A DNA stretch of 64,000 nucleotides from Desulfobacterium sp. (lineage in GTDB: Bacteria; Desulfobacterota; Desulfobacteria; Desulfobacterales; Desulfobacteraceae), in the NCBI GenBank assembly GCA_016342325.1, contig JAEINR010000001.1, positions 1-64,000 on the forward strand. The letters run 5' to 3'. Below the pieces are notes generated by a model. It saw only the letters and a program-made list of their open reading frames with translations, was not told where the DNA came from and ran no database searches. The position numbers were made by a program, and so were the translations under genes. Below are positions 3,888 to 19,454 of the stretch, one piece after another; the first letter of the stretch is position 1, and the number at the start of each line of letters is the position of its first letter.

Positions 3888-4955
<1,068 letters not shown>

Positions 4956-5405
4956 TCAATCCAGCTCAATAAAAACAGTCATGGTTCCGTCCATGGTTTC
5001 AACCTGCACCAGGGCTGTGGTGTCAGGAAGCGTTCCCCCATCCACCATGCCCGGGACCTGGAGTTCATAGGATGAAGCCCCCGCCATTTTGCGCAGGGTA
5101 TTTCCGGCGATCATGTTCAGGCCCTCCTTAAGGACCCCCTCGAAATGTTCCATGGAAAGGGTTTCTCTGGGATCCCCCATGAAATTTTCCGTCATAACGG
5201 CCAGCAAGTCTCTGGGAATGAACAGGGAAAAACACCCCGAACAGGGTCCGGTAAACCCCAGTCGCCCGCCCTTTATCTCCTGGGAGCCAATCAAACCACA
5301 ACGGGGCATGGTGTCCCCATGGCTGATCTCAACAGGCAAATAGAACATGGCTTCCATGACTTCAGAAATCGAGGTCTTCATCGCCGTTATCAAATTCTTC
5401 TTCAT
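4956..5405 (-). CDS. CheX/CheC-like chemotaxis phosphatase
   Basis: 149 aa from ATG 5405, preceded by GGGGAGGG; an in-frame TTG 15 bases upstream is less likely. The key segment EGVLKEGLNMIAGNT (about residues 100-115) matches the E..N..GN signature helix of the CheC/CheX/FliY family, which dephosphorylate CheY-P. Only one such helix is obvious, as in CheX rather than CheC. The start overlaps the end of the cheY-like gene by 44 bases, so the two are probably translationally coupled, and this CheY is its likely substrate. The family is well supported; phosphatase activity is inferred. Confidence 0.8.
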   Translation of the reverse strand: MKKNLITAMKTSISEVMEAMFYLPVEISHGDTMPRCGLIGSQEIKGGRLGFTGPCSGCFSLFIPRDLLAVMTENFMGDPRETLSMEHFEGVLKEGLNMIAGNTLRKMAGASSYELQVPGMVDGGTLPDTTALVQVETMDGTMTVFIELD

Positions 5406-5787
5406 ATGCGCCCTCCCCAAGTATTCGTGTTATGACATCCCGGATGGTTTCCGGGGTAAAGGGTTTGGTGATGTACCCGGCAGCCCCCAACTCCATGAAC
5501 CGATCTATTTTTTCCCGGCTGCCCTCGGTGGAAATCACCACAACGGGAAGCGCCTTTGCCATGTCATGTTTTTTCATTTCACACATCAGCTCAAGGCCGT
5601 TCATGACCGGCATGTTGTAATCGGTGATCACAATATCGATCCAGTTGTCCCGTATCAGGTCAAGGGCCTCCCTGCCGTTGCCGGCTTCATGGAACTCGCA
5701 CCCCCCATACCCTGCCGTCCTGAAGGTCTTTTTGATGACAGACCGCATGGGCATGGAATCATCCACCACCAAAATAGAATAGTTCAT
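5362..5787 (-). CDS. cheY: CheY-like single-domain response regulator
   Basis: 141 aa, one receiver domain with an acidic C-terminal tail (EEEFDNGDEDLDF). Conserved residues are present: LVVDDS acidic pair, acceptor Asp in VITDYNMPVMNG, Ser/Thr in VVISTEG, Lys in YITKPF. It probably takes phosphate from CheA and acts on the motor or as a phosphate sink. Its start overlaps the cheD stop by four bases, and its end overlaps cheX by 44 bases. The extra acidic tail of about 15 residues is not part of a standard CheY; its role is unknown. Confidence 0.92.
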   Translation of the reverse strand: MNYSILVVDDSMPMRSVIKKTFRTAGYGGCEFHEAGNGREALDLIRDNWIDIVITDYNMPVMNGLELMCEMKKHDMAKALPVVVISTEGSREKIDRFMELGAAGYITKPFTPETIRDVITRILGEGAYEEEFDNGDEDLDF

Positions 5788-6263
5788 AGTTTTACCTCAC
5801 TTGCCCCGGATGTTTTCAAATACACATCACCGGTATTGATATCCAGATGCACGGTGCGGTTGACATTCCCCCCTACATCTTCACTGGTGGCCATGACCCT
5901 GTTTTTGAAAAACATCTTTTTCAGGGCCATGTAATTTCGCTTACCGATATTGAAAAACCCTTGCTGATCCATAATTTGGGCCCCTCCCACCACAAAGATC
6001 TTCATCCTGGACTTTTTGGCGTCATATTTATAGGTTTCCTTAAACAACCGTGGAATCCCGGTATCGGCAAACATAAACGGATTTTTTGCCGCCTTGGCCT
6101 TGTCTATGGCGGATTCCGGCAACATATAGTGCAGAATCCCCCCCACCCTTGCCACGGGATCGAACACCACAAGTCCGATACAGGATCCCAGGGAATAGGT
6201 CACCAATGTGTGGCCGGGATCGTTACTCACCTTCATATCTGCAACACCGACAATCAGCTTCAC
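5784..6263 (-). CDS. cheD: Chemoreceptor glutamine deamidase CheD
   Basis: 159 aa, typical length. The catalytic residues of the family are in place: Cys28 in LGSCIG, His45 in GGILHYML and Thr22 six residues before the Cys, the same spacing as the Thermotoga enzyme (Thr21, Cys27, His44). CheD deamidates receptor glutamines and in many bacteria interacts with CheC or CheX to tune adaptation; a cheX-like gene lies two genes downstream. The start is GTG with GGGAG upstream. It lies 19 bases after cheA and overlaps the next gene by four bases. Confidence 0.95.
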   Translation of the reverse strand: MKLIVGVADMKVSNDPGHTLVTYSLGSCIGLVVFDPVARVGGILHYMLPESAIDKAKAAKNPFMFADTGIPRLFKETYKYDAKKSRMKIFVVGGAQIMDQQGFFNIGKRNYMALKKMFFKNRVMATSEDVGGNVNRTVHLDINTGDVYLKTSGASEVKL

Positions 6264-6282: not shown

Positions 6283-9267
6283 TCAACCTGTTACCAACGA
6301 ACTGATACCGTGGACGTCAAGAATCATGCCCACCCTTCCATCGGCAAGGATGGCGCCCCCGGAAAACCCGACAACCTTGTCCAGGCCTTGCCCCAGGCTC
6401 TTAATCACATACTCGTCCTTGCCAAGCAGCTCATCAATGAGAATTCCCAAGCGCTTGTCCTTGCATTCCACAATAACAATCAACCCTTTCCAGGGATCGG
6501 TGCAATCGGTGGGCACATCAAAGATGTCGTCCATGCGGATCAAGGGAATCAGTCCGTCCCGGTCGCGGATCATCTCCGCCTTGCCTTCCACGGAAAAGCA
6601 CTCTGTTTTGTCCGGTCTGAAGGATCGCTGGATCACCATGGTGGGAATCACGTACCGTTCTTTACCCACCCGGACCAACATGCCGTCGATGATGGCAAGG
6701 GTCAGGGGAAGAACAATGTTGAATTTTGTTCCCCTGCCCGGGATTGAACCGATGGCCAGATGCCCCCTGAGCTTCTCAATCCCCCCATTAACCACATCCA
6801 TTCCAACCCCACGGCCTGAAACATCGGTGATCGCTTTGGCCGTGGAAAAACCGGGCTGGAGAATCAGATCGTAGATCTGGGCATCGGACAGGTTTTCATC
6901 CCCGGTGATCAGGCCCGTTGACACTGCCTTGGCAAGAATCCCCTCCTTGTCAAGGCCCTTGCCGTCGTCTTCGATCTCAATATGGATGTTGCCGCCTTTA
7001 TGAAAGGCGCGAAGGGAAATGGTTCCCTGCCTGGGTTTGCCCTGGCGGGCACGTTCTTCATCAATTTCAAGACCATGGTCCACGGAGTTCCGGATCATAT
7101 GTACCAGGGGCTCATACAGGGCCTCCACCACATTTCGGTCGATCTCGGTATCTTCTCCGATCATCTCAAGAGCCACCTTTTTGCCGGATTTCCTGGAAAG
7201 GTCCCTGACCAGCCGAATCATCTTCATGAAAGTGGATTTAATGGGAACCATGCGCATGGACATGGCAATGTTCTGTATGCTTGACACGATCTGTCCCATC
7301 TGTCCCATGCTCTGCTGGAGTCGGGCATCCAGACCGGTCTGTTGCTTGATCATGGACTGGGAGATCACCAACTCTCCTGCCAGGTTGACCAACTCATCCA
7401 GCTTGGCTGTGTTGACCTTGACCTGGCTATCGTTAGTCATCCGACCGGCTTTTTTCTGCTCCATGAGGGCCGTGGCCACCTCCCGGGCACCGGCTTTTTC
7501 TTCACGGACAAGGATTTCCCCCAGTTTCCCCCCGGGACGCTTCTGTTGCGTCTCAAGGGCACTTTCAAGGGCTCCTTGATCAATGACCCCCTTCTTGACC
7601 AGAATTTCACCAATGGGCTGCCGCTCTCCACTGATAAGGGAATCCTGGAGGGCCTGGAGTTTCTCCCCCAGTCCATGGATTTCAATCCCATCGTCCACGT
7701 GGGTGACCCCCCGGGCCGTTGCCTCTTTTACCCGTGACATCAGCAGTTTCAGCGTATCAACCGCCTCCAGGATAACGTCGATGGCCGTGTCGTTGATGAT
7801 AAACTCCCCGCTCCGGGCACTGTCAAGGAAGCTCTCTGTTGCATGGGCCAGGGTATTGATCTTTTTCAATCCCAGAAACCCGGATACCCCCTTGATGGTG
7901 TGAAAGGGACGGAAGATGTTATTAATGATCTCCATGTCCGACGGTGCCTGTTCCAGTTCCACAACCCCTATTTCGATGCTGGCCAGCCCCTCTTCGGATT
8001 CCACCACAAACTCCATGAGGATCGAAACATCCTCGTCGATCAACGGCTCTTCAACTGCCGATGGGGGTGATTCCGACCCATCGTCTCCCCCGTTGGAAAC
8101 CTCGGTTTCAACCGTTCGGGTCATTTCCGGAACCTCCGTCTTCTGGGTAAGCCCCCCAAGAATATCGGAAATGTCAAAGCAAAACTCTCTTCCTTTTTTC
8201 AAATGACGAACCAGGGCCTTCAACAAGGCCACCCCCCCTTCAAGGGGACGAATGGGAACAAGGGGGTCAAGCACCATGGTTTCCCCATAGGTTCTGCAGG
8301 CACGGGCAACCGTTAAAAATGTGGGCTCCTGGATGGAACCGCCATGAACAATAAGCCGATCCACGGTATGAAGGATGTCCTCTCCCATAGGAGGCTCCCC
8401 CGGACAATATTCACCGATCATAAGAAAAAGGTCATCAAGGTCCTGGGAAATCTGTTTCAACCCCCCTTTGGCAAAGTCCCGGGGGGTCGTATCCGCCCCC
8501 CCCCCAATGGATATGGAAGGTCCCTCCTCCTGTTCCAGGTCAGTTTCTTGTTTTCCCATTCCGGAAATGAGATCCTCCATTTTTTCAAAATTCGGAGTAA
8601 GCCCTCCAAGAATATCGGAAATGTCAAAGCAGAACTCTCTTCCTTTTCCCACATGACGAACCAGGGCCTTCAATAGCCTCCCTCCCCCTTCAAGGGGGCG
8701 AATGGGAACAAGGGGGTCAAGAACCATGGTTTCCCCGTAGGTTCTGCAGGCACGGGCAACCGTTAAAAATGTGGGCTCCTTGATGGAACCGCCATGATCA
8801 ATAAGCATATCCACAACATGGAGGATGTCCTCCCCTTCGGGGGGCTCCCCCGGACAATATTCACCGATCATAAGGAAAAGGTCATCAAGGTCCTGGGAAA
8901 TCTGTTCCAAATCCCTTTTATCAACAGCCCGGATAGTCGTATCCGCCAAAAACGCCCCAGTGGATATGGAAGGCCCCTCCTCCCGTCCCAGGGCAGTCAC
9001 TTGTTTTTTCATTCCGGAAATGAGATCCTCCAATTTTTCTATAAAAGGATTTGCCTCGGACACGGTGCCCTGGACAGCCTGCCCAATAAGAATACTTGCC
9101 TGTTGAGCCAGGAGGGCAAGGTTTTCTTGGGAAAGCCCACGGCTAGTTTCATCAATCTTCTCCAATAACGGAGAAAGCCCTAAATAACTTTCCGGTTCCA
9201 AAGCATCCTTTAAAACAAATTCAAGAGAGAGTTCCTCCACAAGTTCCTGAATGAATGTATAAGTCAT
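6283..9267 (-). CDS. cheA: Chemotaxis histidine kinase CheA, enlarged, with internal duplication
   Basis: 994 aa, roughly 300 longer than a typical CheA. The N-terminal 75 residues are followed by two near-identical 150-residue repeats (about 75-225 and 226-375) of a domain I do not recognise. Then come an HPt domain with phospho-acceptor His456 (FHTIKG), a helical segment at 551-609 with two GEILV...Q motifs like the MshEN/GspE N-terminal fold, the dimerisation helix (LDELVNLAGELVISQSM), the kinase core (HMIRNSVDHGLE, IEDDGKGLD, GRGVGMDVV) and a CheW-like C-terminal domain. All catalytic boxes are intact, so it should phosphorylate the CheY and CheB encoded downstream. Confidence 0.96.
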   Translation of the reverse strand: MTYTFIQELVEELSLEFVLKDALEPESYLGLSPLLEKIDETSRGLSQENLALLAQQASILIGQAVQGTVSEANPFIEKLEDLISGMKKQVTALGREEGPSISTGAFLADTTIRAVDKRDLEQISQDLDDLFLMIGEYCPGEPPEGEDILHVVDMLIDHGGSIKEPTFLTVARACRTYGETMVLDPLVPIRPLEGGGRLLKALVRHVGKGREFCFDISDILGGLTPNFEKMEDLISGMGKQETDLEQEEGPSISIGGGADTTPRDFAKGGLKQISQDLDDLFLMIGEYCPGEPPMGEDILHTVDRLIVHGGSIQEPTFLTVARACRTYGETMVLDPLVPIRPLEGGVALLKALVRHLKKGREFCFDISDILGGLTQKTEVPEMTRTVETEVSNGGDDGSESPPSAVEEPLIDEDVSILMEFVVESEEGLASIEIGVVELEQAPSDMEIINNIFRPFHTIKGVSGFLGLKKINTLAHATESFLDSARSGEFIINDTAIDVILEAVDTLKLLMSRVKEATARGVTHVDDGIEIHGLGEKLQALQDSLISGERQPIGEILVKKGVIDQGALESALETQQKRPGGKLGEILVREEKAGAREVATALMEQKKAGRMTNDSQVKVNTAKLDELVNLAGELVISQSMIKQQTGLDARLQQSMGQMGQIVSSIQNIAMSMRMVPIKSTFMKMIRLVRDLSRKSGKKVALEMIGEDTEIDRNVVEALYEPLVHMIRNSVDHGLEIDEERARQGKPRQGTISLRAFHKGGNIHIEIEDDGKGLDKEGILAKAVSTGLITGDENLSDAQIYDLILQPGFSTAKAITDVSGRGVGMDVVNGGIEKLRGHLAIGSIPGRGTKFNIVLPLTLAIIDGMLVRVGKERYVIPTMVIQRSFRPDKTECFSVEGKAEMIRDRDGLIPLIRMDDIFDVPTDCTDPWKGLIVIVECKDKRLGILIDELLGKDEYVIKSLGQGLDKVVGFSGGAILADGRVGMILDVHGISSLVTG
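8147..9046 (-). repeat. In-frame 450-base tandem duplication inside cheA
   Basis: Two copies, about 8147-8596 and 8597-9046. Anchor sequences such as AATATCGGAAATGTCAAAGC at 8161 and 8611 are exactly 450 bases apart. The copies match over most of their length; small differences and at least one 3-base indel near 8500/8950 keep the frame open. Each encodes a segment containing QISQDLDDLFLMIGEYCPGE and VARACRTYGETMVLDP. Confidence 0.95.
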
Positions 9268-9371: not shown

Positions 9372-11645
9372 CTAGAAATCGGTAAAGTCGTCGTCATCAT
9401 CCATGGGAATCACCTGCTCCGGCCTCACCTCCCTGTGACCACGGGCGATCATCTTTCTAGGCGCTGTAAGCTTCATGGGAGTGGCGGGTTTGATGGACCG
9501 GGGGGCGGTCCTTGCGTCTCCCCCGCCTACAAGCTGTACCAGCGCCTCCACCAGGGACTGCATCTGATCGGCCTGGGCGTTGAGTTCCTCCGAGGCCGAG
9601 GCCGACTCTTCGGCAGTGGCGGCATTCTGCTGGGTCACCTTGTCCATCTCTGTCACGGCGATGTTCACCTGTTCAATGCCCTGGGCCTGCTCACTTGAGG
9701 CGGCGGAGATTTCAGCCACCAACGCTCCCACCCGGGCGCTTTTTTCCGAAACCTCGGAAAAGGCGGTATTGGTGGTCTCCACCAGGCTGGATCCCTGCTC
9801 CACCTTTTTCACGGTGCCGTCAATGAGCACGGCCGTACTTTTGGCGGCTTCCGCAGATCGAAGGGCCAGGTTCCTCACCTCTTCGGCAACCACGGCAAAT
9901 CCGGCGCCGGCTTCACCGGCCCGGGCAGCCTCCACCGCGGCGTTCAATGCCAGAAGATTGGTCTGGAAGGCGATCTCATCGATGGTTTTCACCACCTTCT
10001 GGGTTTCGTTACTGGCCTTGGAAATTTCATCCATGGAGGCGATGAGTTCCGACATGGACTGATCCGCCCGGGTCACCACCAGGTTGGCCTCCTTCATCAA
10101 ACTATCGGCCTGATCGGAATTGTCAGCATTCTGCTTGGTCATGGAGGACATCTCCTCCAAAGAGGAAGAGGTCTCTTCAATGGAGGCGGCCTGCTGGGAA
10201 GACCCTTCGGCCAGGGACTGACTGGCCGAGGCCACCTGGCCTGAGGCGGACGCCACCTGGCTGGCGCCTTCTTCAAGCCCCTGGATCACCCGCTTCAGGG
10301 CTCCTGTGATGCCGCGAACGATGAAAAAAGCCATCAGTATACCCACCACCAGTGCCACCAGGGAGATCACCATCATCAGGGTATTGGCCGAGGTAATCTG
10401 GGAGGCCATCTTGGCCTTTTGGTCCTTGCGGGCCGCTTCACACTCGGTCTGGGCCCCCCGGGCCGCCTCGACCATGAAGACCTCAGCCTTTTCCTGGGCT
10501 TGCATCAACTCCCAGAACCCATCTAATTCCTGCTCATAGGCAGTTAACGAGGCCAGGACCGCATCCACCTGCTGGATATTCAGCGCCAGCTTGAACCGGG
10601 ATTTCAGACCCTTGCCCAGCTCCAGGATCTTAGCAATACTGGCATCCACCTTATCCTTATACCCCACATCCCCGGAGATGATCATCTCTTTCTCATTTTT
10701 CCGGGCATCAAGGAACCATTTGATCATGCGGTTGGCATCGTCGGCCTTGGCCATCTTATCATCAAGAAAGGCATCGGCATCTTTTCTGGCCTTGTCAAGC
10801 TGGGCCTTCTGGTCCGCCCGGATCTGCTGGATCGCGTCCAGGGCTGCAGTGGCACTTACAACCATCCGTTCCTTGTCCGACGGGCTCCGGCCTTTTAAAT
10901 AAGACAGGGTCGCGATTTCATAGGCCTTGTAACTCTCCAGAACCGCATCTGCCTGGCGGATGTTCTTGTCAAATTTAAACTTTGATTTCAATGCCTGGGT
11001 CTGATCCAGGATTCTGCGGTTGACCGCCTTCCACTGGGCCCGCACCTGGTCATCGTTTTCAAACATCAACGACACCCGAAACGCCTTGGCATCCATGACA
11101 AGAAGGATCAAATGATTGGCATCGTCGGCCTTGGTCAGTTTATCCTCGATCAGGGCCGCGCTTTTCTCCTGGGCTGCAACAAGCTGATTCTTTTGATCGG
11201 TCCGGATCGCCTCGGTGTTTTCCAGGGCCTGTCGGGCACTGGCTCGCATCTTTTCCATGGTGAGGTCTTTTTCTGCGGCAAGTCTCACATAGGTCTGGAA
11301 CGACTCGCCATACTCCCCCACCTCGGCAATGACGCTGTTCATCTGCTCTATGTTGTTCTGCTTGCTGAACTTTCCCCGGGTTTCCAACGCCTGCTGCTTG
11401 ACCTGGTCAACCGCTTCACTTAGCTTGTCTGCATAACTTTTCTCGTTCCGCAGCATGAAATTCTTTTCATGCTGACGGGCAGTAAGGATATTTTTGACCA
11501 GGCGATTCACATCATCGGCCTTGTCAACACGGCCCACCACACCGGTCATACCGGTATAACCGAAAAAGGCAACCACACATATAAGCACAATGAGTATTGC
11601 GGCCAGTCCGGCGATTTTCGTTCCAATCTTCATCTCTTTAAACAT
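9372..11645 (-). CDS. Methyl-accepting chemotaxis protein with three repeated helical ligand-binding units
   Basis: 757 aa from ATG 11645, which has AAGGAG 9 bases upstream; an in-frame TTG at 11669 lacks this. It has TM1 (about 8-28), a long helical periplasmic region, TM2 (about 415-440), a short HAMP-like linker and a C-terminal signalling hairpin with the conserved tip ([20 protein letters not shown]). The periplasmic part holds three repeats of about 129 residues starting near 42, 172 and 300. Each opens with KADD.N.., and each ends with an A..DQK.. helix, suggesting a multiplied helical-bundle (HBM-like) sensor. The C-terminus ends in an acidic DDDDDFTDF tail. It lies between cheW and cheA; the ligand is unknown. 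Confidence 0.95.
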
Positions 11646-11687
11646 CGAAGCATTCTCCTTGGTGTTCAAAATTTGGTATATCTATCG

Positions 11688-11716: not shown

Positions 11717-12217
11717 TCAACTCGCCTGTTCAAGGCCTGCAATCTCTTCGGCATTGAGCACCCGGTCAATGTCCAATAGAATTTTCACACCGCCCTCCAG
11801 CTTGGCCATGCCCAGTATATAATCGGTATCAAGCCGGGAGCCGAATGCGGGGGGGGCTTCAATTTCTTCATCTCCGATGTTCAGTACTTCAGATACGGAA
11901 TCCACCACGATGCCGATGAGCAGAATCCCCTTGAGGCACTCAATTTCAACCACGATAATGCACGTCCGCTCGGTATAGTCCACGGGCTCCATATCGAATT
12001 TCAATCGAAGATCCACCACGGGAATCACCTTGCCCCTCAGATTGATCACGCCCTTTACAAATCCCGGGGTCCGGGGCACTGAGGTGATGGGCATCATGCC
12101 GATGATTTCCTTGATAGTCAAAATACCGATACCGTATTCTTCACCCCTGAGGCTGAAGGTCAGGTATTTACCTGCCCTGCGGGAGACCTCCTTCAGGGTT
12201 TCGGATAGATCAGCCAT
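11717..12217 (-). CDS. cheW: Chemotaxis coupling protein CheW
   Basis: 166 aa, a single CheW domain. Typical segments are seen: FSLRGEEYGIGILTIKEIIG near the start, VPRTPGFVKGVINLRGKVIPVVDLR in the middle, and DYILGMAKLEGGVKILLDID near the end. It bridges receptors to the CheA kinase in the signalling array. It is the second gene of the sigma-54-type operon beginning at 12606 and comes before a receptor and cheA. Confidence 0.97.
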   Translation of the reverse strand: MADLSETLKEVSRRAGKYLTFSLRGEEYGIGILTIKEIIGMMPITSVPRTPGFVKGVINLRGKVIPVVDLRLKFDMEPVDYTERTCIIVVEIECLKGILLIGIVVDSVSEVLNIGDEEIEAPPAFGSRLDTDYILGMAKLEGGVKILLDIDRVLNAEEIAGLEQAS

Positions 12218-12240: not shown

Positions 12241-12606
12241 TTAAGGATTTAAAATTTTGTTCAACACCGAAATCACATCATTGAAATCACTGTCGATGAA
12301 TGTCAGGAAACTGGTTTTCAACCCCACCCCCAGGTAGAGGGTCGTAGGGGTTCTGTCCGGCAGGACCAGGATCACACGAATATTATCCAGCAGATCTCCC
12401 ATGGATATCAATTCCTTGAGTTCACGGAGGGAGGCTGCAACCAGAACGGCAATGGTGATGCCGTGCCTGGGACGACACAGGGTTTTCTGAAGCGTATCCA
12501 TACCAGAGCAGATTTTTGCCGGGCATTCTGGCAAACAGCCTTGAATTTTGCTCCAGAGCCTTTTCCCGGCTCCATCTACTTTTGAGTTAGAAAAAACAAC
12601 GATCAT
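12241..12606 (-). CDS. Small unknown protein, first gene of the chemotaxis operon
   Basis: About 121 aa; I do not recognise the family. It starts MIVVFSNSKVDGAGKRLW, and alternating hydrophobic strands (ITIAVLVAASL, IRVILVLPD, SFLTFID) suggest a small alpha/beta fold. No signal peptide or TM helix is apparent. The frame is open up to GTG 12675, but a good -24/-12 promoter at 12651-12667 lies inside that extension, so ATG 12606 is the likely start. It is followed 23 bases later by cheW, so it is probably cotranscribed with the chemotaxis genes. A receiver-like or regulatory role is speculation. Confidence 0.7.
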   Translation of the reverse strand: MIVVFSNSKVDGAGKRLWSKIQGCLPECPAKICSGMDTLQKTLCRPRHGITIAVLVAASLRELKELISMGDLLDNIRVILVLPDRTPTTLYLGVGLKTSFLTFIDSDFNDVISVLNKILNP

Positions 12607-12650
12607 TGCCTGACCTTTATCTGGGGTTAATGTTTTTATCTGTGTAAACA

Positions 12651-12667
12651 GCATAGAATGTGCCAAC
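12651..12667 (-). promoter_or_regulatory. Sigma-54 (-24/-12) promoter of the cheW operon
   Basis: The minus strand reads TTGGCACATTCTATGC: GG and GC separated by exactly 10 bases, with the -24 box TTGGCAC nearly perfect. The expected start of transcription is near 12639, about 33 bases before ATG 12606. Two palindromic sites lie about 105 bases upstream. Confidence 0.8.
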
Positions 12668-12747
12668 AGATGCACTAAAAAAACAATGTTTACATTTCAA
12701 CGGGTTACTCCGAAAAGAGATCAATAGGGAGATGAAAAACCAATGAC

Positions 12748-12789
12748 ATTCCTAAAAACAGGAATCCCCGCATTCCTGTTTTCAGGAAT
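12748..12789. promoter_or_regulatory. Paired inverted-repeat activator sites upstream of the cheW operon
   Basis: Site A (12748-12765) is ATTCCT-N6-AGGAAT. Site B (12772-12789) is ATTCCTG-N4-CAGGAAT, a perfect 7-base inverted repeat. Centres are 24 bases apart. Site B overlaps the stop codon of the upstream receptor gene. The position, about 105 bases upstream of a -24/-12 promoter, fits an enhancer for an NtrC-type activator. Confidence 0.75.
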
Positions 12790-15046
12790 TGACATGGAAG
12801 ATCCTCTTTTCAGGCGCTGCCGGCTTCATGGGAGTGATGCGCTTCCTAGGCCGGGGATTGGTCCGGGCGCTGCCCCCGCCCACTAGCCTGACCAGATCCG
12901 CCACCATGGACTGCATCTGGTCGGCCTGGGCATTGAGCTCTTCCGAAGCCGCGGCCGACTCTTCGGCATTGGCGGCATTCTGCTGGGTCACCTTATCCAT
13001 CTCGGTCACGGCGTTGTTCACCTGTTCAATGCCCTGGGCCTGGTCACCGGAGGCGGCTGAGATTTCTCCCACCAGCTCCCCCACCCGTCCGCTTTTTTCC
13101 GAGACTTGGGCAAAGGCGGTATTGGTGGTCTCCACCAGACGCGAACCCAGCTCCACTTTTTTAACGGTGCCGTCGATGAGCGCCGCCGTACTCTTGGCGG
13201 CTTCGGCAGATCGAAGGGCCAGGTTCCTCACCTCTTCGGCAACCACGGCAAACCCAGCCCCGGCTTCACCGGCCCGGGCAGCTTCCACCGCAGCATTCAA
13301 TGCCAGAAGATTGGTCTGAAAGGCGATCTCATCTATGGTCTTCACCACCTTCTGGGTCTCGTTGCCGGCCTTGGAAATTTCATCCATGGAGGCGATGAGT
13401 TCAGACATGGAGTGATTCGCCCGGACCACCACTTGGTTGGCTTCCTCCATCAACCGATCGGCCTGATCCGAACTTTCTGCGTTCTGCCGGGTCATGGAGG
13501 ACATCTCCTCCAGGGAAGAGGAGGTCTCTTCAATGGAAGCGGCCTGCTGGGAAGCGCCTTCTGCCAGGGACTGACTGGCCGAGGAGACCTGGCCTGAGGC
13601 CGAGGCCACCTGTCCGGCACCCTCTTCAAGGCCCTGGATCACCCGGTTCAGAGCCCCGGTGATGCCGCGGCTGATGACAAATGCCATCACCAGGCCGATA
13701 ACAATGGCCGCGGCACCCACCAGGGTCACATTACGCTGGGTGCCCTGGGCCGCTTTCAGCATAACAACATCGGTCATGATGTTGTTTTTCGCCTCCTGGC
13801 GCAGCTTGCCCAGAAGTTCCTGGGTTTGACCCAAAGCCGGCAATGTCTTTTCGGCATAGATTTGTCTGGCATGGTTCATTCCCTCGACCATGGCATCTGC
13901 CCGAAGAACAAGATTTTTCAAGGCGGTTTGAGTCTGTTCAAGGGCGGCCAGGGTTTCGGTTATAAAAATATGGTGAGCCTGTTTGCCGGCCTGGATATTC
14001 GTTTTCTCCAAACGAATCAGTTCTTCAAAATATCCGGCAACCGTTTCAAGTTCAGCGGTTGTCTCTCCCTCAAAGATACCCACCCTGGCATCATGGCTGC
14101 CGGCCCTGGTAATTTTGATTGCTGTCTGGTGAAGTTTTCCATGGTGAGCGAAGACCTTGGAGACAATGACGCCAAATTCCGGCCACATGGCAGAGATATC
14201 CCTGCACTCGTTACTGTTGAGCCACCTGCCGAAGGCACACGTTGAGGGGTCGGTGGTCACATGGATCTTTTTCTCGGTGAGAAGAGCGGTGGCAATCTCT
14301 GCCGCCCATTTGCGGTGATCGTCCAGCCGGGCTCTCAATGTGTCTATCAGACCCGGATGGCCCTGCTTCCATGCCGCCTGGATTTTAACGGCCGAGGCAT
14401 GAAGTCCGGCATGGGGGGCTTTTAGCCCATTGATCAGCCGGGCCAGTTCCGGATCAGAACCCGCGGCATTACGGCCCACATCCCCATGAAGAAACTGACC
14501 CAGGCCGCACCCCTGATCATCGGTCACGACATCAAGTTTGGGAAGGTTGTATACAAAAAGCGCCTGAACTTTGGTGATCCATTTGAGATGATCCACCTCT
14601 TTCTTCACCAGAAAAGAGGGCAGCGTTTCATCTGCCTGAACAAAATGGGTTTTGATCTCAATGGCCGACGCGTGCAATTTTGCGTGGGGGCCCTCGATCC
14701 CCTTCAACAAGGGGGCCAGGGACGGAACCAGGGCTTGTGCCTCCCTGGGGCCTTCACCGTAGAGCCACGTGCCAAACCCGCACAGATGGTGATCGGTCTG
14801 AACATCCAGCGTTGTGATGTTTTCATCGGTCAATAGCCCGTTGACCTTGTTGGCCCAGTTCAGGTGATCGACCTCCTTCTGGGCCAGATTTGCATCAAGT
14901 TGGTTGCCGTCAATGACCTGGCCTGCATTTTGGACGATGCCGCCAACCCCGGTATAGCTCAGCAAACCCACAATCCCCAATAGAACCAAGATTATCCCAA
15001 AGCCAATCGCAATCTTTTCGCCAACCGTCACATCGTTCCAGTTCAT
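12782..15046 (-). CDS. Methyl-accepting chemotaxis protein with three tandem CZB-like zinc-binding modules
   Basis: 754 aa. TM1 (about 12-33) and TM2 (about 430-452) flank a large region expected to be periplasmic. It contains three successive modules, each with the CZB pattern H..W, C-G/A-x-G, H..LH. The putative zinc ligands are His61/Cys89/His121/His125, His153/Cys180/His212/His216 and His244/Cys270/His302/His306. A helical stalk, TM2 and a signalling domain almost identical to that of the other receptor follow. CZB domains bind zinc through three His and one Cys and are usually single and cytoplasmic. This gene has its own sigma-54-type promoter and ends within the activator sites of the next operon. 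Confidence 0.93.
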
Positions 15047-15101
15047 AACATTCCCCTTTTATAACAGCTATTTTTGTTGAGTATGTTTATCTGTATGCTT
15101 A

Positions 15102-15117
15102 GCAGAAAACGTGCCGA
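15102..15117 (-). promoter_or_regulatory. Sigma-54 (-24/-12) promoter of the triple-CZB receptor gene
   Basis: The minus strand reads TCGGCACGTTTTCTGC: GG and GC separated by 10 bases, with GGCACG in the -24 box. The expected transcription start is near 15090, 44 bases before ATG 15046. The paired activator sites lie about 106 bases upstream. Confidence 0.7.
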
Positions 15118-15199
15118 CGAAGACGCTTTCGGGAAAGAACTTAGATTTCAGAGAGTTAGACCATATAAAGATAGGTGTGAGGAGGGAAAGGCACAAGGG

Positions 15200-15241
15200 A
15201 TTCCCAAAAACAGGAATCCCAAGGTCCCTGTTTTCAGGAAT
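15200..15241. promoter_or_regulatory. Paired inverted-repeat activator sites upstream of the triple-CZB receptor gene
   Basis: Site C (15200-15217) is ATTCCC-N6-AGGAAT. Site D (15224-15241) is GTCCCTG-N4-CAGGAAT. Centres are 24 bases apart. Sequence, order, spacing and distance to the promoter repeat those of the pair at 12748-12789. They lie just after the stop of the activator gene. Nothing else coding is seen in 15047-15277. Confidence 0.75.
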
Positions 15242-15277: not shown

Positions 15278-16681
15278 TTAGTTCTTGCTGAACCCCGGCA
15301 GTCCGTACTTTTTCAACAGACCGTACAATCGCGACTGGGAGATCCCGGAAAGGGACTCAGCTTTTTTTCGATCCCCGTCAGCTCTTTTTAACAGCAAGGT
15401 AAGATATTCGCACTCAACGCGTTCCCGGTGGGCATTCAGGGTGGGGAAAACATCGTCATTTTCCGTGGAAGAACCAAGGAAAGCATTTTGCACAGGAGAC
15501 CCATGGGGTTTTAACTTCAAGACAGCCATGCGATATTCCGGTGGTAGATGCTTGGGAAACAGGGTGGGATCCTGGCCGGCTGCCCCCAGGGTAGCGTCCA
15601 GTATGTTTATCAGTTCCCGCACGTTGCCCGGCCAGCTATGGGCTGTCAAGACATCCAAGTAATCCCGGGAGATGCCCTTGAGTTGGATGGCGTAACGATT
15701 TGAGAGTTCATGGAGCTTTTTGATGGCAATCTCTTCAATATCCTGTTTTCGCTCCCTTAAGGGGGGCAGGTGAATGGAGATGCCACGGATACGGTAGAGG
15801 AGGTCTTCTCGAAAAAGCTGCTCCGTTACCAGGGAATCAAGATCCCGGTTTGTGGCGGCCACCAGCCTGAAATCGACCCGCTGTTCCCTCCCCCCGCCCA
15901 AGGGGCGTACTTTTTTCTCCTGGAGGGTTCTCAGCAAAGCGATCTGCACATTCAAAGGAAGATCGCCAACCTCATCCAGGAACAGGGTGCCTCCGTCTGC
16001 CTGGACAATAAGGCCGTCCTGCTGTCTATCCGCCCCGGTAAAGGCCCCCTTGTTATGGCCGAACAGGGTGCTCTCCACCAGGGTGTCGGGCAGGGCGCCG
16101 CAATCCACTGCAATGAAAGGTCGAGATGCCCGTTTGCTGTTATTGTGAATGGCCCGGGAAAAGAGCTCTTTTCCCGTTCCGGTTTCACCCGTTACAAGGA
16201 CACTACCGTCTGTTACCGATGCCTTGGCAACCTCATGCAGACACCACTGAAGGAGATCGGATTCCCCGATGATCCCTTTCCGAAGAAGGGGTATTGGAGA
16301 AACATCCACCTGTTTTTCCGAACGATATTGCAGGGCCCGGGTGATGGAGAGACTCACCTCATCCAGCAGAAAAGGTTTCTGGACGTAATCCCATGCGCCG
16401 TATTTGAACGCAAGTTCTGCCCCCGTGCCCCCCCCTGTTCCGGTGATAATGATAACCTCGGGACGGGACGGGACGCGCATGAGATCCTGCAGGATATCGA
16501 TACCGTTTCCTTCAGGAAATTCCAGGTCAAGGAGAACCAGGTCAAAGCCTCCGCTTTCGGCAAGACCAAGGCCTTTGGCCAGGGAATTGGACTGGATTGC
16601 TTCATGGTCCATCCCCTTGAAGAGCTTGGTTAAGAAAAGTCCTATTTTGACATCATCGTCAATGATCAGTATTCTGGCCAT
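15278..16681 (-). CDS. Sigma-54-dependent response regulator (NtrC family)
   Basis: 467 aa. N-terminal receiver (IIDDD, acceptor Asp52 in VLLDLEFPEG), central AAA+ domain (about 135-370) with Walker A GETGTGKE, sigma-54 contact loop GAFTGA, Walker B GGTLFLDEVGDL and an arginine-rich sensor region, then a C-terminal Fis-type helix-turn-helix (about 440-460). It hydrolyses ATP to open sigma-54 promoters. I chose ATG 16681 (MARILIIDDD) over an upstream in-frame start at 16696. Its start overlaps the end of the hybrid kinase gene by 23 bases, so the kinase is its likely partner. The adjacent palindromes and -24/-12 promoters are its probable targets, by inference. Confidence 0.95.
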   Translation of the reverse strand: MARILIIDDDVKIGLFLTKLFKGMDHEAIQSNSLAKGLGLAESGGFDLVLLDLEFPEGNGIDILQDLMRVPSRPEVIIITGTGGGTGAELAFKYGAWDYVQKPFLLDEVSLSITRALQYRSEKQVDVSPIPLLRKGIIGESDLLQWCLHEVAKASVTDGSVLVTGETGTGKELFSRAIHNNSKRASRPFIAVDCGALPDTLVESTLFGHNKGAFTGADRQQDGLIVQADGGTLFLDEVGDLPLNVQIALLRTLQEKKVRPLGGGREQRVDFRLVAATNRDLDSLVTEQLFREDLLYRIRGISIHLPPLRERKQDIEEIAIKKLHELSNRYAIQLKGISRDYLDVLTAHSWPGNVRELINILDATLGAAGQDPTLFPKHLPPEYRMAVLKLKPHGSPVQNAFLGSSTENDDVFPTLNAHRERVECEYLTLLLKRADGDRKKAESLSGISQSRLYGLLKKYGLPGFSKN

Positions 16682-19454
16682 GGTGCTCCCCTCCACTGTT
16701 CCTATTCAATGCACTGGCGATCACCTGGGCCAGCTTGTCTGCTATTATCGGCTTCATGACCATATCAGCAATGCCAGACGCCTTAAGCATGGCCGGGGTG
16801 GGACTTTGGCTGAATCCCGTGCACAACACAATGGGAATATCAGGACGGATTTGTAAAAGCCGCTTTGACAGTTCCAGTCCGTTTATGCCGGGCATGGCCA
16901 TGTCGCTTACCACAAGATCGAATTTTCCGGGATAACTCCGAAAGAGTCCAAGGGCATACAAAGGATCGGTGGCGCCGGTGACCTGATATCCCCAAGATTC
17001 AAGGACCTGCCGCCCGGTCCTGATGATCCCCTCTTCACCATCCACCCAAAGGATCCTGGACGTTACCTGTTTTAATGGGGATGGGGATTTAACGGGATCA
17101 GCTGCCTTGTCCCCCCATACCGGCAGGAATACCTGGAAGGTTGATCCCTGGCCGGGTTCACTTGCAACCAAAATATTCCCCGCCATCTCCCTGACAATGC
17201 CGTACACCGTGGAAAGCCCCATGCCGGTGGCTTCCCTGCGTTGCTTTGTGGTAAAAAACGGATCAAAAATCTTCCCCGCCACCTGGCTGGACATACCTGT
17301 GCCGGTATCTGCAACACTTAATTTAAGATAGGCACCCGGGTCGAGATCCTTGGCCCTGGCTGTGGCTGGCTCCTCAACGGCAACGGTTTCGAGCCTCACC
17401 TCAAGCATCCCTCCGGAGGATTTCATGGCATGGACAGCGTTGGTGCACAGGTTCATGATGATCTGGTGAAGCTGGGAAGCGTTGGCCATGACAGTGGCGT
17501 CGGTTTTCTCCATTTTCTGTGTGAGATCAATGCCCGGGGGCAGGGAGGCCCGGACAGATTGCAAACACCCTTTGACCAGGGGAGACAGAATCATGGGGGA
17601 TTTTTGAATATCGGTCTGACGACTGAATGTCAAAATATGTTTCACAAGCTCCCTTGCCCTGATCCCGGCAGCCAGGACCTGATCCAGATTGCCTTCGAGT
17701 TCCGGGTCATTTTTAACACCCATTTTCGCAAGCTCGGTAAACCCCAGCACAGAAGATAAAATATTGTTAAAATCGTGGGCAATGCCGCCAGCCAACGTGC
17801 CCACGGCCTCCATTTTCTGGGAATGCTTGAGGCGCTCCGCCATTTGCCTGCGCTCTGTGATGTTCCGGGTGATACCAAGGATCCTGTCGGCATGGCCCTG
17901 GTCATCCCTTAAGAAACGAGCCGACGTCTCGGTCCAGACCGTGGTTCCGTCCTTTTTGATCACCTCCAGCTCCAGTGCGATCACCCTGCCGGGATCACCA
18001 CCGCCCTTTTCTTCCAGGGCAAGCTCCCGGTCAATTTCCATGGATATATAAGTAAAAGATGCCTCGGTCAAAAAATCCCGGGGAGCAAGCCGGACAAACA
18101 CCTCCGGCGTATGGCCAAGGAGCTGTTTGACGGACGGGCTCATGTAAATCAGCCCCATGGCAGAGAGTGCAAACACCCAGATACTGTCTGTGGCATTATC
18201 CGCCAGCAGACGATAGCGCTGTTCACTTTCCATCAACGCTTTTTCAGACCGGTTTCTCTGGATGATTTTCCACATGCCGTCCATGAGCAACTGCAGCTGG
18301 CGGAGATCGGAATCATTGTAGTCATCCCTTTTATTGGCAACCCCTGCAACAGCAACAATGGCGTCCCCATCAAACACGGGAGTGTTGAGATGGCGCACAA
18401 TGTCAACATGACCCGGGGGAATGCCCTTGGCCCGGTCAGGCCCAAGCCCCTTGTAGTCATTGGTGATGACCGCCTCCCGTCTTCGGATGGCCTCCCCCCA
18501 TAACCCTGAAGCCTTCACAGGAAAAACCATGGGCGTATCAACGATTCCGCACTGATCCATGACATGGGTTGACCAGTTCTGCACAGTCATCTCGGTTTCA
18601 TCATCATTCATAAAAAACAGATACCCCATATCGCTTTGGGTCAAAGCCGTGGCCTGATCCATGGCAAAGGTGGTCAGCTCTTTAAGAGATACATGGGACA
18701 TCTGGCTCAGTTCCAATATTTTTTGAAGGCGTCGCTCATCCAGGCGCAACGCCGTTTCCACCTGGGCACGTTTTTTTCCGTTCTTAACCGCCTGCCAGGA
18801 GATGTAAAAGGAGAGGCCAAGGACGATGACGAGAAGCCCCATAATAATTTCAATCAGGTCCCGGATGATCTCCTGGATTTCTAAGTTGACATCTTCCACA
18901 TAGATGCCCGTGCCCAGGACCCAGCCCCAGGGAAGGAACCCTTTTACAAAGGAGATCTTTTCAACGATTCTTGTGGGATCATCCTTCCACTGCCAGAGAT
19001 AGGTCAGGTAGCCTTCCCCTTTCTCTGCGACAAGAGCTGCGCTTTCGGTAAACATGAATCGGCCCTGGGAATTGGCATAGGTGGACAGATCCATTCCCTC
19101 AAGCCCGGGCACATAGGGGTGCATGATCATTCTGGGGTACAGGTCATTGATCCAAAAATAGTCCTTGCCATCGGGGCCGTAACGAAGCCCTTTGATACGC
19201 TCCTTTGCCCTTGACTGTGCATCAGCCAAAGAAAGTTCACCAAGTTCCACCCGATGATAATAATCCGCGACCAGGCTCCAGGCACTGTCAGTGAGTTCAT
19301 GGATCATCGCCTTTTTTTGATCCATCATGTGTGTTTTCAGGGAGGGAATAAAAACGAAAAAAAGGCTCAGCAAAAACAGGAAAAAGGTGATCCACAGGGG
19401 GATGATGATTTTCAGAGCTGAAACCTTGACCATGGGAGGCGGTATGTTTTTCAT
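16659..19454 (-). CDS. Hybrid sensor histidine kinase (Cache-GAF-PAS-HisKA-HATPase-REC)
   Basis: 931 aa. TM1 (about 12-37), a periplasmic single-Cache-type domain (about 45-195, with DGKDYFWINDLYPRMIMHP), TM2 (about 203-225), GAF (about 255-405), PAS (about 410-535), HisKA with His560 (AGGIAHDFNN), HATPase_c (IMNLCTNAVHAM, VADTGTGM, ATGMGLSTV) and a C-terminal receiver with acceptor Asp851 (VVSDMAMPG). The receiver's usual acidic pair is changed: it reads WVDGEEG instead of VDDEE, so one metal-binding acid may be missing. The 3' end overlaps the sigma-54 activator gene, which it probably phosphorylates. Cache_2 domains often sense small organic acids; the ligand here is unknown. Confidence 0.94.
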   Translation of the reverse strand: MKNIPPPMVKVSALKIIIPLWITFFLFLLSLFFVFIPSLKTHMMDQKKAMIHELTDSAWSLVADYYHRVELGELSLADAQSRAKERIKGLRYGPDGKDYFWINDLYPRMIMHPYVPGLEGMDLSTYANSQGRFMFTESAALVAEKGEGYLTYLWQWKDDPTRIVEKISFVKGFLPWGWVLGTGIYVEDVNLEIQEIIRDLIEIIMGLLVIVLGLSFYISWQAVKNGKKRAQVETALRLDERRLQKILELSQMSHVSLKELTTFAMDQATALTQSDMGYLFFMNDDETEMTVQNWSTHVMDQCGIVDTPMVFPVKASGLWGEAIRRREAVITNDYKGLGPDRAKGIPPGHVDIVRHLNTPVFDGDAIVAVAGVANKRDDYNDSDLRQLQLLMDGMWKIIQRNRSEKALMESEQRYRLLADNATDSIWVFALSAMGLIYMSPSVKQLLGHTPEVFVRLAPRDFLTEASFTYISMEIDRELALEEKGGGDPGRVIALELEVIKKDGTTVWTETSARFLRDDQGHADRILGITRNITERRQMAERLKHSQKMEAVGTLAGGIAHDFNNILSSVLGFTELAKMGVKNDPELEGNLDQVLAAGIRARELVKHILTFSRQTDIQKSPMILSPLVKGCLQSVRASLPPGIDLTQKMEKTDATVMANASQLHQIIMNLCTNAVHAMKSSGGMLEVRLETVAVEEPATARAKDLDPGAYLKLSVADTGTGMSSQVAGKIFDPFFTTKQRREATGMGLSTVYGIVREMAGNILVASEPGQGSTFQVFLPVWGDKAADPVKSPSPLKQVTSRILWVDGEEGIIRTGRQVLESWGYQVTGATDPLYALGLFRSYPGKFDLVVSDMAMPGINGLELSKRLLQIRPDIPIVLCTGFSQSPTPAMLKASGIADMVMKPIIADKLAQVIASALNRNSGGEHHGQNTDH

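Follow-up and report, generated by a model that had tools for sequence, protein, structure and literature searches.

A duplicated sigma-54 control region with paired mirror-image operator sites precedes two chemosensory transcripts in Desulfobacterium and is probably served by the adjoining NtrC-type regulator

Which activator switches on the chemosensory genes of this Desulfobacterium locus, and are the two like control regions that precede them both in use? The window, by which we mean the whole stretch of 64,000 nucleotides that was analysed, carries a kinase gene, an activator gene, a CZB receptor gene and an operon that begins with a small gene and continues with cheW, an HBM receptor gene, cheA, cheD, a CheY-like receiver gene, cheX and cheB, all of them on the minus strand. 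The features on which the argument turns are listed here in the order in which they would be read.

16659-19454, minus strand: hybrid sensor kinase, sCache_2-GAF_2-PAS-HisKA-HATPase_c-receiver (Pfam); overlaps the activator gene
15278-16696, minus strand: response regulator of the NtrC type (enhancer-binding protein), receiver-Sigma54_activat-lid-HTH; the activator proposed for the two modules
15200-15241, minus strand: putative paired activator site of module 1 (far site 15224-15241, near site 15200-15217)
15146-15158, minus strand: IHF-like core of module 1, TAACTCTCTGAAA, matching 8 of 9 consensus positions
15101-15117, minus strand: -24/-12 promoter of module 1, TCGGCACGTTTTCTGCT, a GG-N10-GC match
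12782-15046, minus strand: chemoreceptor with three CZB stretches and an MCP signalling domain (Pfam)
12748-12789, minus strand: putative paired activator site of module 2 (far site 12772-12789, near site 12748-12765)
12695-12707, minus strand: IHF-like core of module 2, TAACCCGTTGAAA, matching 8 of 9 consensus positions
12650-12666, minus strand: -24/-12 promoter of module 2, TTGGCACATTCTATGCT, a GG-N10-GC match
12241-12606, minus strand: pseudo-receiver gene that opens the operon; the predicted fold is that of a receiver, and no phospho-acceptor Asp is conserved
11717-12217, minus strand: cheW (Pfam)
9372-11669, minus strand: chemoreceptor with an HBM sensor domain (Pfam)
6283-9267, minus strand: cheA, with Hpt, dimerisation, HATPase and CheW domains (Pfam)
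5784-6263, minus strand: cheD
5362-5787, minus strand: stand-alone receiver, cheY-like
4956-5420, minus strand: cheX
3888-4928, minus strand: cheB

Module 1 lies between the activator and the CZB receptor genes, and module 2 between the CZB receptor and the pseudo-receiver genes, its far site overlapping the end of the CZB receptor gene at 12782. In each, a pair of ATTCC...GGAAT sites, 24 bp from centre to centre, is followed after about 84 bp by a -24/-12 element. In the two modules 105 and 106 bp separate the centre of the near site from the GC of the -12 element. A previous sequence-only reading had described this same arrangement, before the triple-CZB receptor and before the small gene-cheW-receptor-cheA operon, and its positions for sites and promoters, its 24-bp spacing and its 105/106-bp distance all held on re-checking. 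Both promoters have the form GG-N10-GC, with a TGGCAC-like -24 and a TTGC-like -12 element, and thus have the sequence of sigma-54 (RpoN) promoters; rpoN was found in the genome. Weaker GG-N10-GC candidates also occur in the window and at one related locus (L081).

The receiver, AAA+ and lid domains of the adjacent protein are Pfam matches and place it among the NtrC-type response-regulator activators. Its GAFTGA loop and its recognition helix, SGISQSRLY, were read by eye, there being no Pfam match for the HTH, and ATG 16681 is the likelier start (protein 15278-16681). The sensory part of the hybrid kinase comprises a single Cache domain, a GAF and a PAS domain (Pfam). As for the chemosensory proteins themselves, the receptors at 12782-15046 and 9372-11669 have, by eye, nearly identical signalling halves and unlike sensor halves, which suggests recombination or gene conversion. 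CheA (6283-9267) contains an MshE-type c-di-GMP-binding motif at residues 551-604 (NF053729, 43.4 bits, cut-off 38), and its N-terminal half holds two near-identical stretches of about 100 aa, also seen by eye.

Only the pair is informative. A single site read with 2 mismatches gives 379 matches in the genome versus 132 and 121 for the reversed control. The 42-base pair pattern (6-base gap fixed, at most 3 mismatches) has exactly two occurrences in the genome of 6.67 Mb, both of them here, and its reversed-pattern control has none. Among 389 genomes of the order, the pattern was found at 16 places in 13 genomes (this one included), all belonging to the family of the window, and the control again gave 0. 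A dispersed repeat, which should scatter the palindromes over the genome away from -24/-12 elements, is rejected, since the genome holds two copies of the pair and each precedes a promoter. Two additional exact matches to the single site (C82, C92) have no convincing -24/-12 element within 300 bp, and a one-mismatch match (C4) sits, by eye, in an apparent receiver-domain coding region.

The sequence-only reading had also argued that a spacing match to within a base, in unrelated flanking sequence, pointed to selection. The flanks are in fact related: the spacers of the two modules are identical at 47 of 81 positions (58%) and the leaders at 26 of 47, and none of 500 shuffles equalled either value, whereas 311 of 500 shuffles did as well as the alignment of the 60 bp upstream of the modules. 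The two control regions are therefore diverged duplicates of common descent, and because they are homologous the match within the window could be plain inheritance. Selection can thus not be argued from the window alone, although, as described below, other genomes do argue for it.

Duplication raises the possibility that a single module still works and its duplicate is in decay. The arms depart from the consensus at 4 positions in module 1 and at only 1 in module 2, and just two others of the 13 pair-bearing genomes have two pairs: in one (G356) each pair stands behind its own activator, and in the other (G364) one of the pairs is without a promoter. Against this, the spacers have diverged to 58% identity, yet the -24/-12 elements and IHF-like cores of both modules have been kept, as have most of the TTCC/GGAA arms, which suggests that both copies are used. 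Moreover, four relatives have a paralogous activator close upstream of a CZB receptor of this kind, so that the link from activator to CZB receptor is recurrent. We therefore consider a single working module improbable. In those four relatives a cheW, 67-70% identical to that of the window, stands between activator and receptor, and no clear -24/-12 element was found within 400 bp before the receptor. The present genome has a second triple-CZB receptor (G000:C72:76315-77202), 73% identical over the CZB part and with a cheW homologue just before it. The promoterless pair of G364 (L073:9968-10009, contig G364:C129), the one place of the 16 where no -24/-12 element was found, is followed by a large ORF and a response-regulator-like ORF.

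Conservation was followed through orthologues of the activator, which were found at 57-65% identity in 13 relatives (58 genomes searched, own included). The pair and promoter occur at the conserved distance in 11 of the 14 genomes whose activator is 57% identical or more, namely 10 relatives and the window's own, the promoters of 3 of these 11 failing a stricter promoter rule. In one more genome (G009) the distances are kept, with one of the two sites good and the other degenerate, and another (G012) has a variant pair spaced 23, upstream of a pseudo-receiver gene that is there divergent from the activator. The last (G022) has activator and promoter with no recognisable pair. A putative cognate upstream activator site thus accompanies the activator in 11 of 14 genomes, in one further genome in degenerate and in one in variant form, and one genome is without it.

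To describe the geometry we used 20 modules, drawn from the orthologue loci, from Desulfobacula, Desulfotignum, other Desulfobacteraceae and a few other Desulfobacterales, and from pattern matches (L074 came from the pattern search). Each had an accepted pair (at most 4 arm mismatches, fixed orientation) and a GG-N10-GC element, so that the promoter is present in all 20 by construction. L073, with an accepted pair and no promoter, was left out, and L078 was found later. In all 20, the distance from the start of the near site to the GG of the promoter is 99-104 bp; the spacing of the sites is 22 in L087, L091, L093 and L094 and 25 in L048. These distances are constant over unlike spacers, which argues for selection on the geometry. 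Most relatives examined have one module, between the activator and the pseudo-receiver gene. What stands behind the modules varies. For example, L091, L093 and L094 carry pair, IHF-like site and promoter, and no same-strand ORF of 80 aa or more was found within about 0.9 kb downstream of the module; the product there may be a small ORF or an RNA. At L085 (7491-8874) the module precedes a creatinase/prolidase-type M24 peptidase rather than chemotaxis or sensory genes. At L041 and L082 a CheA-like protein with three CheW stretches and without an Hpt match is encoded behind the module, in L041 after a dCache_1 receptor.

The aligned spacers share one conserved block, which fits the IHF consensus published in PMC7962754 (WATCARNNNNTTR, as given in the accessible text) on the other strand. 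In 19 of the 20 modules the best match falls at -41 to -44 relative to the GG, the exception, L044, having a 7/9 match at -43, and the resulting peak was reached by 0 of 300 shuffle sets (L050, a near copy of L084, was left out). Because the block had been noticed before it was tested on these 20 modules, 61 loci outside the clade are the better test. Among them, 22 have a strong match (8 or 9 of 9) at -45 to -40, where 100 shuffles averaged 0.90 and never exceeded 3; another 4 have one a turn further up, and in 35 neither preferred window holds a strong match. The 20 modules served to build the promoter matrix, with a cut-off of 5 bits for pair scoring and operator typing and of 8 bits for the distant-locus IHF test and the pseudo-receiver loci. 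The genome encodes four HU/IHF proteins whose best matches are HU-alpha, IHF-beta (twice) and IHF-alpha, all below the NCBIfam curated equivalog cut-offs. An IHF consensus fixed between operator and promoter, together with these IHF-alpha and IHF-beta best matches below cut-off, is what would be expected of IHF-assisted promoters.

The conserved pair, distance and IHF-like site behind its orthologues make the adjacent NtrC-type response regulator (15278-16696) the probable activator. The residue at the first position of the recognition helix was compared with the operator at 65 activator loci: 21 had Gln, 31 Arg and 8 Lys, and 5 had no recognised helix. Gln activators went with TTCC-N8-GGAA sites in 18 of 21 cases and never with the GTCC type (3 undecided). 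Arg activators had GTCC-N8-GGAC, a type defined after such sites had been seen, in 12 cases of 31, the TTCC type in 1, and were undecided in 18. One of the 8 Lys activators had the TTCC type. In a tree, the activator of the window falls in a single supported clade (98/99) of 23 Gln rows and 1 Lys row, with two Gln rows outside. Since nearly all Gln rows lie in one clade, the Gln/Arg operator shift is roughly one evolutionary change, and the correlation of helix with operator is confounded by phylogeny.

Might another activator of this genome work both promoters, the neighbouring regulator being merely linked? The genome has five more activator paralogues at E<=1e-80, and the accessible text of PMC12316311 reports Desulfobacteria as the class richest in such activators. 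However, the pair tracks orthologues of the adjacent activator across genomes and sits behind that very gene in the 11 genomes counted above, and outside the clade most of the activators that could be decided go with operators of another kind. We give this alternative slightly less credit than the decayed-copy one. The comparative evidence thus favours the claim of the sequence-only reading that the module is under selection and that the looping activator is probably the neighbouring 15278-16681 protein.

That reading had seen two palindromes in each module. The sites stand, but they are better described as mirror images about one dyad than as two independent palindromes: across modules the centre of site 1 is A-rich and that of site 2 T-rich, and complementarity is 86% between sites versus 65% within them. 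This symmetry, the strong folding of the 42-bp element (-29.4 and -22.5 kcal/mol, with 0 and 2 of 200 shuffles as good) and the many pair copies within about 60 bp after a gene end would also suit an RNA hairpin that terminates or attenuates transcription of the upstream gene, yet no terminator-like site was called there, the distance that separates the pair from IHF-like site and promoter is fixed, the gene ends 194-248 bp before some copies and two like sites with inverted centres fold automatically, so that we regard a mainly RNA role as the least probable of the three alternatives and very unlikely. Termination as the main role is thus unsupported, and the element may have a secondary role of this kind. 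A C2-symmetric pair of activator dimers would account for the symmetry equally well.

We return to the duplicated control region and its neighbouring regulator. Judged from sequence comparisons, duplicate enhancer-dependent promoters, run by the 15278-16696 regulator with IHF bending, very probably drive both chemosensory transcripts. The hybrid Cache/GAF/PAS kinase, encoded just before, would switch on the response regulator, which would bind as a pair of dimers at the two mirror-image ATTCCTG/CAGGAAT sites. IHF would bend the DNA at the conserved intermediate site and so place the AAA+ ring of the activator on the sigma-54 polymerase at the -24/-12 element. Module 1 would turn on the triple-CZB receptor and module 2, separately, the pseudo-receiver-cheW-HBM receptor-cheA-cheD-cheY-cheX-cheB transcript. 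Here we infer phosphorylation by the adjacent kinase, binding, bending, looping and the extent of the operon.

The first product of that operon is more surprising than the regulon. Its gene most likely starts at ATG 12606, because the promoter falls inside the longer GTG frame and homologues begin at this ATG. The protein has no Pfam or NCBIfam match beyond scattered weak ones with E up to 1. AlphaFold2 confidently predicts an alternating five-strand receiver-like fold (pLDDT 87.8), and the top Foldseek matches of the model are mostly receiver domains (TM to about 0.78, best E 3.6e-3). In an alignment of 21 sequences there is no conserved phospho-acceptor Asp or acidic pair, although a few homologues have Asp pairs, not conserved, after strand 1. 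The predicted fold is thus like that of CheY-like receivers, but the phosphorylation residues conserved in receivers and any Pfam or NCBIfam name are lacking, and we call it a pseudo-receiver.

Pseudo-receiver genes were found in 63 of 291 genomes of the order; 9 of the 99 listed matches were left out of the fetched loci, and the gene was recovered in 111 of 112 loci (L024 was missed). At 103 non-redundant loci, 77 have a strong -24/-12 element within 260 bp upstream, versus 49 of 1020 shuffled regions, and at 62 an activator gene lies no more than 900 bp upstream. When the 16 loci of the clade or the training set are left out, the figures are 62 of 87 for a promoter of at least 8 bits and 50 of 87 for an upstream activator. 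Chemosensory genes, or a che homologue, follow in at least 44 of 89 loci, a lower bound because Pfam found an MCP domain in a locus scored as having none (L222). Elsewhere the next large ORF encodes a response regulator, an activator or a pilin-like, ParA-like, molybdopterin-binding or periplasmic-binding-like protein (24 loci with non-chemotaxis surroundings looked at, 10 scanned). With surroundings so often unrelated to chemotaxis, we rejected the view of the pseudo-receiver as a chemotaxis protein; it seems to be part of the activator system, and our guess is that it feeds back on the activator or kinase. Paired palindromes 24 bp apart are not a property of all these activator/pseudo-receiver loci: 23 of 86 regions had a pair score beyond 40 shuffles, and several of these 23 were other spacings or direct repeats. 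We tentatively raise, as possible though less likely than not, that the module of the window belongs to a large Desulfobacterales family of switches made of activator and pseudo-receiver, with a fixed geometry of site, IHF and sigma-54 promoter and an operator of its own in each, in which the non-phosphorylatable first product would feed back on activator or kinase and the Gln/TTCC versus Arg/GTCC difference would insulate parallel systems.

The operator is new and the kind of regulon is known. As described in the accessible text of PMC7962754, NtrC-family two-component sigma-54 systems are alike in the domain order of the activator, tandem enhancer sites, the -24/-12 promoter and an adjacent kinase gene, and they too have an IHF site between enhancer and promoter, as the window has an IHF-like one. 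The window differs in its own operator sequence, its mirror-image sites 22-25 bp apart, its chemosensory targets and its duplicated control region. Desulfovibrio vulgaris Hildenborough, according to the portions available of PMC4641369 and PMC3333781, likewise reduces sulfate and has many activators, whose sites are mostly palindromic, and chemotaxis is among its sigma-54-dependent functions. Its chemotaxis-linked promoters are listed in those portions of PMC4641369 without a predicted activator site, and the ATTCCTG/CAGGAAT motif was not found in the same text of the two papers, motif figures aside. The che clusters of Geobacter (PMC2577667, available portions) resemble the window in having che/mcp operons with predicted -24/-12 elements, but no activator site or cognate activator is described there. 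In the open-access literature we found no chemotaxis regulon with this palindrome, in agreement with the sequence-only reading, and no description of the pseudo-receiver family or its role.

What is proposed here for the chemosensory genes of a sulfate reducer is a defined and testable regulon of one kinase, one activator and two promoters, where the chemotaxis-linked sigma-54 promoters of Desulfovibrio had been left without activator sites (PMC4641369, portions available). The pseudo-receiver that adjoins many such activators constitutes a family without a Pfam or NCBIfam name. The operator series, Gln with TTCC and Arg with GTCC, in genomes rich in activators, makes the insulation of parallel sigma-54 systems testable.
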